A stretch of 37,254 nt of DNA from Candidatus Nanopelagicales bacterium (GTDB taxonomy: Bacteria > Actinomycetota > Actinomycetes > S36-B12 > UBA5976), in the NCBI GenBank assembly GCA_016463095.1, contig JAEMSA010000012.1, positions 2,566-39,819 of the forward strand, given 5' to 3'. Within the stretch, counting starts at the first letter, position 1. Each line of letters opens with the position of its first letter. Of the stretch, positions 19,891-22,768 are shown piece after piece. The notes beneath the pieces are model-generated. The model saw nothing but the letters and a program-made list of their open reading frames with translations. It was not told the DNA's origin and made no database searches. The position numbers and the translations under genes are program-made.

Positions 19891-20567
19891 GCTGCTTTTA
19901 TAAGAGCTGCAAATAGTCTTTTATCTTCACTCATTTCAGGATGCCATTGCACACCTAAATGAAAATCTTTTGTGGGATCCTCTAAAACTTCAATAGTTTC
20001 ATCTTCAGCCCAACCAGTTATTGTCAAAGACCCAGGTTTATCAACTGCTTGGTGATGAGAAGAATTAACAACCATTGCTAAACCTAAAATTGATGAAACA
20101 AGTGAATCAGGTTTGAATCGTGCTTGATGTTGAGAAAACTTTGCAGGAGCTGGTCTGTGATCAAGTTTTGTGACATCAGGTAAATGTTGAATTAAAGAGC
20201 CACCTTCGGCAACTGCCATGATCTGGATTCCTCGACAGATTCCTAAAATTGGTAACCCAATTTCTGTGGCATGCTTATAAAGACTTACTTCGCCTGCATC
20301 ACGGTTTTCTCGAGGTTGATCTGCTGTTTCGTGTGGATTTTGTTTATATAAACGTGCATCAATATCTGCACCACCGGCAATTATTAATCCATCCAAATTA
20401 TTTACCACGTGACCACCATTTTGATCAGGAGGAAGAATCACAGCTCGCCCACCCGCATTGGTCACAGAACTTACATATTCAAACGGTAAAACTGCAGCAG
20501 TGATATCCCAAGCGCCCCATTTGGCAGGTTCGACGTAGCAAGAAATTCCGATCACAGGAGAGTTCAT
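19866..20567 (-). CDS. PuuD-like gamma-glutamyl amide hydrolase (C26)
   Basis: A 233-residue class I glutamine-amidotransferase-fold hydrolase of the peptidase C26 / PuuD family. The nucleophile Cys111 lies in LGICRGIQ, and the His-Glu pair in QWHPEMS. GLIIAGGADID is the family's substrate/oxyanion loop. PuuD cleaves gamma-glutamyl-GABA to glutamate and GABA; here the substrate would be the acid made by the neighbouring aldehyde dehydrogenase. It is convergent to the SDR and transcribed separately. ATG start at 20567 has no clear ribosome-binding site. Confidence 0.88.
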   Translation of the reverse strand: MNSPVIGISCYVEPAKWGAWDITAAVLPFEYVSSVTNAGGRAVILPPDQNGGHVVNNLDGLIIAGGADIDARLYKQNPHETADQPRENRDAGEVSLYKHATEIGLPILGICRGIQIMAVAEGGSLIQHLPDVTKLDHRPAPAKFSQHQARFKPDSLVSSILGLAMVVNSSHHQAVDKPGSLTITGWAEDETIEVLEDPTKDFHLGVQWHPEMSEDKRLFAALIKAASAYRNNR

Positions 20568-20707
20568 AGATAAGAGTCTGGCAGGTAGTTAACCAAGGGG
20601 GAGTTATTGGGGAAAAAGGCTATATATATGACCCAAGTGGTGAGCGTGAATTGTGAGGCTCATAGACTCGTGATTCGGTTATTCAAAAAGCTGACGTTAA
20701 GAGAGGT
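20568..20707. promoter_or_regulatory. Divergent region upstream of infA
   Basis: A 140-bp gap between the hydrolase and infA. A TATATATAT run at 20621-20629 could serve as a -10 element for infA, but no good -35 lies 16-18 bp upstream. A GAGAGG ribosome-binding site (20700-20705) lies just before the infA ATG. The usual actinobacterial upstream genes (secY-adk-map) are not here. Confidence 0.4.
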
Positions 20708-20926
20708 ATGGCAAAAGAAGGCGCCATTGAGCTTGAAGGCACCATTGCTGAAACTCTTCCCAATGCAATGTTTCGGGTAGAGCTAGACAATGGCCACAAA
20801 GTTCTCGCACACATCAGCGGCAAAATGAGAATGCATTACATCAGAATTTTGCCTGACGATCGCGTAATCGTGGAGTTATCTCCCTACGATTTAACCCGCG
20901 GTCGGATTGTTTACCGCTACAAATAA
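20708..20926 (+). CDS. infA: Translation initiation factor IF-1
   Basis: A 72-residue single OB-fold protein that binds the 30S A site during initiation. The full family length is present, from [13 protein letters not shown] to the terminal GRIVYRYK, with [13 protein letters not shown] in the middle. ATG start at 20708. rpmJ follows 24 bp later, the standard actinobacterial arrangement. Confidence 0.98.
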
Positions 20927-20950
20927 ACCGCTTACGAAAAAAAGGAATGT

Positions 20951-21064
20951 ATGAAAGTACAGCCAAGTGTTAAGAAGATTTGCGATAAGTGCAAAGTCAT
21001 TCGCAGACACAAACGCGTAATGGTTATTTGTGAAAACCCTAGACATAAACAACGTCAAGGATAA
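20951..21064 (+). CDS. rpmJ: 50S ribosomal protein L36
   Basis: A 37-residue protein starting [16 protein letters not shown] and ending RHKQRQG. The zinc-ribbon ligands are Cys11, Cys14, Cys27 and His32, the C+ type of L36. ATG at 20951 is preceded by AAAGGA at 20941-20946. It lies between infA and the structured rpsM leader. Confidence 0.97.
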
Positions 21065-21081
21065 CTTCACAAACAATTTGT

Positions 21082-21242
21082 AGTAACCAATTACGGTTAT
21101 CCGTCACCTCAAATTAAATCTTGCCGATTTAAATAGAGAACGACACCTTTGGTCATCAGAAGCCAAAGACTTACCCAGGGCGGGTAAGACCGATAACACG
21201 TAACAAGACTTCTGACTTAATAGAAAAGGAAAACCGCCCAAT
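21082..21242 (+). promoter_or_regulatory. Candidate structured rpsM leader with pseudoknot
   Basis: The 178-nt gap before rpsM is unusually rich in complementarity. Visible helices: AGTAACC-type 6-bp hairpin at 21083-21100; TTAAATC/GATTTAA at 21114-21132; CTTTGG/CCAAAG at 21147-21168; CTTACCC/GGGTAAG at 21170-21188. The loop of the third hairpin (TCAGAAG, 21156-21162) is exactly complementary to CTTCTGA at 21209-21215, forming an H-type pseudoknot that ends 11 nt before the AGGA ribosome-binding site (21227-21230). In E. coli S4 represses this operon through a pseudoknot at rpsM; an analogous role here is inference. A promoter may also lie in this stretch. Confidence 0.5.
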
Positions 21243-21620
21243 ATGGCACGTTTAGCTGGAGTTGATCTTCCTCGCGATAAGCGCGTTGAAGTTGCTCTTA
21301 CTTACATTTATGGAATTGGCAAAACCCGTTCCACTCAAATGCTGACCGCAGCAGGAGTTAATCCAAATACACGAGTAAAAGATTTAGATGAACCATCACT
21401 AAATAAACTTCGTGAATACATTGACCAAAACTTTAAAATCGAAGGTGATCTGCGTCGAGAAGTTTCGTCAGACATCAGAAGAAAAGTAGAAATTGGTTCA
21501 TACCAAGGTGTTCGTCATCGTCGTGGACTTCCAGTTCGTGGACAAAGAACACACACCAACGCAAGAACTCGTAAAGGTCCGCGCAAAACCGTTGCCGGCA
21601 AAAAGATTGCAGTGAAGTAG
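21243..21620 (+). CDS. rpsM: 30S ribosomal protein S13
   Basis: A 125-residue small-subunit head protein contacting the P-site tRNA and 50S bridge. [19 protein letters not shown] and the basic C-terminus ([19 protein letters not shown]) are diagnostic. ATG at 21243; AGGA lies 12 nt upstream. First gene of the alpha-operon block rpsM-rpsK-rpsD-rpoA-rplQ and preceded by the structured leader. Confidence 0.98.
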
Positions 21621-21632
21621 GGGATTTGAATA

Positions 21633-22052
21633 ATGGCTGAAAAAGATAAAGAAAAGAAAGCTAAACCTTCAGGTCCTAAGAAGGTTCGTAAAAAAGTTAA
21701 GAAGAATGTTGCCCATGGTCAAGCACACATCAAATCAACATTCAACAACACAATTGTTTCCATCACTGATTTAACTGGTGCAGTTATTTCATCATCTTCA
21801 AGTGGTCAAGTTGGATTTAAGGGTTCACGTAAATCAACACCATTTGCTGCTCAATTAGCTGCAGAAGACGCAGCCAAGAAAGCAATGGAACACGGACTTA
21901 AAAAAGTTGACGTGTTTGTGAAAGGCCCAGGATCAGGTCGAGAAACTGCAATCAGATCTTTACAAGCCTCTGGTCTTGAAGTTGGTCAAATTCAAGATGT
22001 CACCTCAGTTCCTTTCAACGGTGTGCGTTCCCGCAAACGCCGTCGCGTCTAA
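21633..22052 (+). CDS. rpsK: 30S ribosomal protein S11
   Basis: A 139-residue platform protein. The first ~28 residues are a Lys-rich actinobacterial-type extension, then the conserved core begins with [15 protein letters not shown] and ends [14 protein letters not shown] at 21633, 12 bp after rpsM. Confidence 0.98.
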
Positions 22053-22086: not shown

Positions 22087-22713
22087 ATGGCACGTTATAC
22101 AGGGGCAGATTGCAAGAGATGCCGTCGCGAAAAAGTAAAACTTTACTTAAAAGGTTCTAAATGTGATTCACCAAAGTGTCCAATGGAATCACGTCCATTT
22201 CCACCAGGACAACACGGTAGAAACCGCGGTAAAGAATCTGAATACTCATTACAGAAACGTGAAAAGCAAAAAGCTGCACGTATCTATGGAATTTTGGAAA
22301 GACAGTTCCGTAACTATTACGAAGAAGCATCAAGAAGAACAGGTAAAACTGGTGAGAACCTTCTTGAAATGTTGGAACGTCGTTTAGACAATGTTGTTTA
22401 TCGCGCAGGTTTTGCTAAGAGTCGTGACATGGCCAGACAAGTTGTTCGCCACGGTCACATCTTGGTTAATGGTAGGAAATTAAATATTCCTTCTTACCAA
22501 GTTTCACCAACAGACATCATCGAAGTTCGTCCCGAATCACGCGAATTAACACCATTCGTTGTGGCACGTGCCGAATCAGGTGAGAAGCCAATTCCAGCAT
22601 GGTTAGACGTAGCACCACACACCATGCGCATTTTGGTAACCGCAACACCGTTGCGATCACAAATCGACACAGCTGTTCAAGAACAGTTGATCGTTGAGTT
22701 GTACTCCAAGTAA
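22087..22713 (+). CDS. rpsD: 30S ribosomal protein S4
   Basis: A 208-residue primary 16S-rRNA-binding protein. The N-terminal zinc-finger cysteines are retained (CKRCRREKVKLYLKGSKC, then CP), and an S4 RNA-binding domain follows (RLDNVVYRAGFAKSRDMARQ). S4 is the autoregulator of this operon in other bacteria, relevant to the rpsM leader. ATG at 22087 with AAGGAG upstream at about 22070-22075. Confidence 0.98.
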   Translation: MARYTGADCKRCRREKVKLYLKGSKCDSPKCPMESRPFPPGQHGRNRGKESEYSLQKREKQKAARIYGILERQFRNYYEEASRRTGKTGENLLEMLERRLDNVVYRAGFAKSRDMARQVVRHGHILVNGRKLNIPSYQVSPTDIIEVRPESRELTPFVVARAESGEKPIPAWLDVAPHTMRILVTATPLRSQIDTAVQEQLIVELYSK

Positions 22714-22768
22714 TAAAGCACTTCCCCAACTAAGTCATCAAATATAGGTTGACTGAGAGGCAGTAAAA

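Follow-up and report, generated by a model that had tools for sequence, protein, structure and literature searches.

A Pseudoknotted Four-Way Junction before rpsM in Actinomycetes: A Very Likely and Apparently Undescribed Ribosomal Protein Leader

Known Leaders at rpsM and rpsD

In E. coli, ribosomal protein S4 represses rpsM via a pseudoknot (PMC10931766). This alpha-operon site (Rfam RF00140, Alpha_RBS) is located before rpsM in the gene order rpsM–rpsK–rpsD–rpoA–rplQ, and its pseudoknot reaches the ribosome binding site while 30S binding is still possible. S4 is also the proposed ligand of leaders in the rpsM operons of Clostridia and Fusobacteriales, which belong to phyla other than that considered here (Eckert and Weinberg 2020, PMC7247131), and the leader survey in that work lists S4 leaders in Clostridia, Fusobacteriales, Bacteroidia, and Flavobacteria, with none for Actinobacteria. 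The B. subtilis S4 leader is likewise an untranslated leader, but it precedes a stand-alone rpsD and contains no pseudoknot, unlike the element described below (PMC10931766).

Among actinomycetes, the rpsM 5' UTR of M. tuberculosis is long (216 nt) and abundant, with a proposed role in coordinate regulation with rpoA (Arnvig et al. 2011, PMC3207917); the text consulted describes neither a structure or pseudoknot nor covariation or a family spanning the class. Moreover, the L17-Actino-Proteobacteria leader (RF03132) is a ribosomal protein leader of the same actinobacterial gene cluster, with matches in Streptomyces-like loci, but it is an unrelated 56-nt element at another gene. Two other motif searches leave rpsM unmentioned in their main text (PMC11109978, PMC6429828), and no description of the present leader was found in the open-licence literature, so that an earlier account elsewhere is possible.

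The Leader Preceding rpsM in the Window

The stretch of DNA analysed, termed here the window, comprises 37,254 nucleotides from a Candidatus Nanopelagicales bacterium and carries the genes infA–rpmJ–rpsM–rpsK–rpsD–rpoA in this order. The leader lies in the 178 nt that separate the rpmJ stop (21064) from the rpsM ATG (21243) and, like Alpha_RBS, is placed at the ribosome binding site of rpsM in the alpha operon. Compared with 200 dinucleotide shuffles, this intergenic gap has a better fold (z −3.0). The components are as follows, all on the + strand:

21091 to 21101, +, 5' strand of stem P1, TTACGGTTATC, closing the four-way junction (MFE fold, RNAalifold, pair counts with compensatory changes)
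21108 to 21138, +, hairpin region P2, CTC..TTAAATC-TTGCC-GATTTAA..GAG (MFE fold; covaries in the order alignment)
21139 to 21146, +, strand joining P2 and P3, where the ACGACACC motif starts (its ACG is invariant in the 27-sequence alignment)
21147 to 21168, +, hairpin P3, CTTTGG-TCATCAGAAG-CCAAAG (98.8–100% of cells paired, compensatory changes)
21156 to 21162, +, 5' strand of pseudoknot PK1, TCAGAAG, in the P3 loop and directly adjoining the 3' strand of P3
21170 to 21188, +, hairpin P4, CTTACCC-AGGGC-GGGTAAG (99.4% of cells paired in 57 distinct sequences)
21178 to 21183, +, 5' strand of pseudoknot PK2, GGGCGG, in the P4 loop and stem top (z −5.3 by permutation within the order; three pairs with changes on both sides)
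21192 to 21203, +, 3' strand of P1, GATAAC-A-CGTAA (MFE fold, RNAalifold, 57-sequence pair counts)
21209 to 21215, +, 3' strand of PK1, CTTCTGA (direct reading, own-versus-foreign pairing, locus count)
21222 to 21230, +, Shine–Dalgarno-like AGAAAAGGA, flanked by the 3' strands of PK1 and PK2 (direct reading; anti-Shine–Dalgarno duplex scan of relatives)
21234 to 21239, +, 3' strand of PK2, CCGCCC, in the spacer between Shine–Dalgarno and AUG
21243 to 21620, +, rpsM (S13), the first gene after the leader
21633 to 22052, +, rpsK (S11), an ORF found in the same order in relatives when used as tblastn query
22087 to 22713, +, rpsD (S4), of the cysteine-containing type, the candidate repressor

The initial annotation had proposed here an H-type pseudoknot formed by P3, with a further hairpin enclosed. 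Direct reading bears out its parts, namely the P3 strands CTTTGG (21147–21152) and CCAAAG (21163–21168), a P3 loop of TCA followed by TCAGAAG, the perfect complement of the latter in CTTCTGA, and the hairpin now called P4. PK1 is also of the H-type, as a hairpin loop pairs outside its own stem and the 5' strand abuts the 3' strand of P3 without a spacer, so that the stems can stack coaxially, and it is real, conserved, and covarying. However, it does not stand isolated: the closing stem P1, the hairpin P2, and the second pseudoknot had been missed, and in the best fold, to which P1 and P2 are added, P3 and P4 become arms of a four-way junction. This architecture, with PK1 in the P3 loop and PK2 in the P4 loop, differs from that of the E. 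coli site.

The proposed database search gave no Rfam 15 family at gathering score, whether across the window or for the rpsM leaders of 16 loci from the class; the rpsM leaders of 16 further loci gave no match at E ≤ 1 save one sub-threshold istR (28 bits versus 45). For the window's leader, a search of Rfam 15 at E ≤ 10 returned nothing but a weak Alpha_RBS match and two chance matches to lncRNA models. Membership of Alpha_RBS was rejected, the match scoring 10.4 bits against a cut-off of 38, with E 7.6 over all families and an alignment lying partly on the rpsM coding start; the leader is at best a functional counterpart of that element. Likewise, ZEB2_AS1_2 and SMAD5-AS1_3 were discarded as human lncRNA models without base pairs and far under their cut-off.

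Conservation and Covariation of the Junction

The rpsM loci were taken from 35 genomes of the window's order, one of them being the genome that holds the window, and were supplemented with 80 named loci from the class and phylum. When 27 members of the order were aligned with MAFFT without structural guidance, RNAalifold recovered P1–P4 with compensatory changes in 21 of 22 pairs, and the covariation of the whole structure with both pseudoknots amounted to 0.485, compared with 0.221 for shuffled and at most 0.176 for slid versions. With an alignment of 57 distinct sequences guided by the nested model alone, the structure with both pseudoknots reached 0.504 versus 0.193 shuffled and at most 0.142 slid. 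Compensatory change in both P3 and PK1, the check that the initial annotation had proposed for an alignment of relatives, was found already within the window's genus, where one locus (L007) carries PK1 as CTCAGAGG/CCTCTGA and P3 as CTTCGG/CTGAAG, versus TCAGAAG/CTTCTGA and CTTTGG/CCAAAG in the window. The element is thus a covarying structure in the 5' UTR of a ribosomal protein operon, as is characteristic of ribosomal protein leaders, and on this comparative evidence it very likely functions as one.

Two Pseudoknots of Different Reach

Since a covariance model cannot hold pseudoknots, these were tested apart from it, each P3 loop being paired with the downstream region of either its own locus or another species. 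Own pairing in PK1 averaged −9.9 kcal/mol versus −4.7 kcal/mol for foreign pairing (31 distinct loops, z −13.6, 0 of 20000 permutations), and in PK2, where the partner of the P4 loop was the 16 nt immediately preceding the start codon, −10.2 versus −8.3 kcal/mol (25 distinct loops, z −5.3, 0 of 20000), the permutations leaving phylogeny unmodelled in both cases. Cross-controls were null, with z 0.1 for the P4 loop on the PK1 target and z 0.5 for the P3 loop on the PK2 target. Direct evidence comes from changes on both sides of each helix, which in PK1 yield TCAGAAG/CTTCTGA, GTAAAGG/CCTTTAC, GAAGATG/CATCTTC, CACGGGG/CCCCGTG, and also CTCCAGG/CCTGGAG, and in PK2 GGGCG/CGCCC, AGGCG/CGCCT, TGGCG/CGCCA, GGGTG/CACCC, and GACG/CGTC. 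In the window, PK2 requires the top of P4 to open.

Beyond the window's order, PK1 is also supported (z −6.6), whereas the same pairing test gives no support for PK2 there (z +2.8). PK2 is therefore an addition of that order, and a step in which the AUG is masked cannot be general. Outside the order, PK1 is mostly GGAGG/CCTCC, the core of the Shine–Dalgarno/anti-Shine–Dalgarno pairing; a loop GGAGG was rejected as the conserved element, many lineages holding the pairing with other sequences.

The prevalence of GGAGG/CCTCC, together with the abundance of the M. tuberculosis rpsM UTR (PMC3207917), could be accommodated by a structure that acts without a protein ligand, setting the efficiency of rpsM translation, 30S standby binding, or the processing or stability of the infA–rpmJ–rpsM mRNA, with the frequent GGAGG of the P3 loop as a decoy Shine–Dalgarno sequence masked by CCTCC. 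We regard this explanation, including its decoy variant, as clearly improbable: the varied PK1 strands indicate that the pairing rather than the Shine–Dalgarno sequence has been kept, in the window's order and elsewhere, and a four-way junction with conserved joining strands resembles a protein-binding fold.

Distribution across the Actinomycetes

Of 107 rpsM loci, 88 combine P3 and PK1 at 15–33 nt from the start, compared with 9 of 535 dinucleotide shuffles, and the distance of the two to the rpsM AUG is fixed. They are missing where the gap consists of a few bases, as in Acidimicrobiales, Coriobacteriales, Nitriliruptorales, and one Blastococcus. In the latter (L053), the rpmJ–rpsM gap is 14 nt and rpsD is still in the operon, the leader having apparently been lost.

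A covariance model of the order (R1) matches 120 of its 148 genomes, and 73 of the 80 near-complete ones, with a single match per genome save in G052 and G112. The additional matches in these two lie at contig ends and were set aside as probable assembly duplicates rather than extra copies. Of the 60 Actinomycetes genomes in a sample drawn from across the phylum, the broader class model (R2) matches 48, and it has no match in about 336 genomes from the phylum's other classes; because few candidates per genome were scored, some misses are probably limits of sensitivity. The element is consistently associated with one operon, as it occurs nearly always once per genome and, in the loci examined, at the rpsM start.

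Each helix, taken alone, is short, as chance complementarity would also have it. However, this reading was rejected on the covariation, permutation, and shuffle tests, and its probability is practically negligible. As judged from sequence comparison, the region before rpsM encodes a genuine and conserved RNA fold, in which one or two pseudoknots lock a junction of four helices and which is common to most Actinomycetes tested; this comparison underlies the fold, PK1, PK2 within the order, the position, and the distribution. Thus, the independent or divergent leader that the initial annotation had ascribed to the window's lineage does exist as a pseudoknot leader at the position of the E. coli alpha-operon S4 site, but it is wider than proposed, spanning the class.

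S4 or Another Ligand

S4 is the sole primary 16S rRNA binder among the products of this operon, while S13 and S11 are late 16S binders for which, to our knowledge, no leader activity has been described. This primary binding favours S4 as the ligand, and so does its role, known or proposed, at rpsM leaders elsewhere; operon content and precedent make it a plausible one.

The leader is kept, however, in Micrococcales, Bifidobacterium, and some Streptomyces with rpsD outside the operon, and the rpsD found elsewhere in these genomes encodes a different S4 type, 38–46% identical to the window's S4. With the leader persisting there, S4 would have to act in trans. A copy of the rpsM leader before the relocated stand-alone rpsD would have pointed to S4, and none was found. 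These observations leave room for a translational leader whose ligand is S13, S11, or a complex: the leader directly precedes rpsM and remains there after rpsD has moved, and the relocated rpsD bears an unrelated-looking leader of its own. Such a ligand is possible but rather unlikely, given the late binding of S13 and S11, their lack of any leader activity known to us, and the three other groups in which S4 is the ligand, known or proposed, at rpsM (PMC10931766, PMC7247131).

Among Streptomyces-like genomes, high R1 scores were obtained in five of seven with rpsD in the operon versus one of nine without it. This link between a full-strength leader and rpsD in the operon is suggestive and confounded by descent; a clean link of leader integrity to the presence of rpsD was rejected as not general.

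The relocated genes themselves (loci L178–L201) form a separate observation. The 38–46% identity of their S4 to that encoded at 22087–22713 of the window suggests displacement by another S4 type, not simple transposition. Moreover, conserved-looking leaders of their own precede these stand-alone rpsD genes in Micrococcales and Bifidobacterium, with CTCTCC-N5-GGAGGCCAG in Micrococcaceae and CCCATCARTGGGTCGGCG in Bifidobacterium, with no Rfam match at gathering level in these loci.

Proposed Mechanism

No terminator-like and no promoter-like site was found on the + strand in 20540–21700. Some ribosomal protein leaders do use transcription attenuation, and the region could in principle act in that way or as an internal promoter region; with neither kind of site present and the structure adjoining the rpsM Shine–Dalgarno sequence, either role is very improbable. 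The lack of a terminator-like site on the + strand and the position of the element, abutting the rpsM start, therefore argue for translational control rather than attenuation.

The element is most likely a switch that lets a ribosomal protein, probably S4, turn off the translation of its own operon. The rpmJ–rpsM intergenic RNA folds into the P1–P4 junction, the P3 loop pairing downstream as PK1, and in the window's order the P4 loop also pairs between the Shine–Dalgarno sequence and the AUG as PK2. An operon protein, most likely S4, when in excess over 16S rRNA, would then bind and stabilise the pseudoknotted form, so that the Shine–Dalgarno sequence, flanked by the two pseudoknots, stays exposed and PK2 holds the spacer that leads to the start codon. 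Initiation at rpsM would thereby be blocked, and that of rpsK and rpsD too, by coupling. An open Shine–Dalgarno sequence combined with a held start site would resemble the entrapment described in E. coli (PMC10931766). The translational action, this entrapment-like step, and, from operon content and precedent, S4 as ligand are inferred. A four-way-junction leader through whose pseudoknotted form an operon protein, most likely S4, blocks rpsM translation is the best explanation available and a reasonably probable one.

A further element was noted downstream. Class loci (e.g., L038, L051, and L087) contain a small conserved hairpin, mostly 21–30 nt upstream of the rpoA start, with the loop CAWATRGYGG and a covarying stem (GGACGT/ACGTCC, CACGTGT/GCACGTG, GGCGT/GCGCC). 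The motif is present in 82 of 106 loci, irrespective of whether rpsD precedes it, has a weak counterpart near 22736–22756 in the window, and gave no Rfam match in the loci tested. Arnvig et al. 2011 (PMC3207917) reported the M. tuberculosis rpoA and rpsM 5' UTRs as homologous.

Implications for Actinobacterial Ribosomal Protein Control

The class-wide ribosomal protein leader is real and strongly supported, and apparently undescribed. That it represents, in full, an undescribed Actinomycetes-wide family that combines a four-way junction with one or two pseudoknots and has no structural relation to any known S4 leader, and in which the extra pseudoknot of one order clamps the spacer between Shine–Dalgarno and AUG as an independent solution to E. 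coli-type entrapment, lies in our judgement just on the probable side.

The control of ribosomal protein synthesis in Actinobacteria, a group including Streptomyces, Mycobacterium, and Bifidobacterium, is nearly unexplored, and a 2021 paper on mycobacterial rpsO found hardly any information available (PMC8470358). With a strongly covarying leader on an operon whose products also include RNA polymerase alpha, this control becomes directly testable. Moreover, the leader adds another independent case at rpsM, and its retention after the loss of S4 from the operon raises a clear-cut question of evolution.
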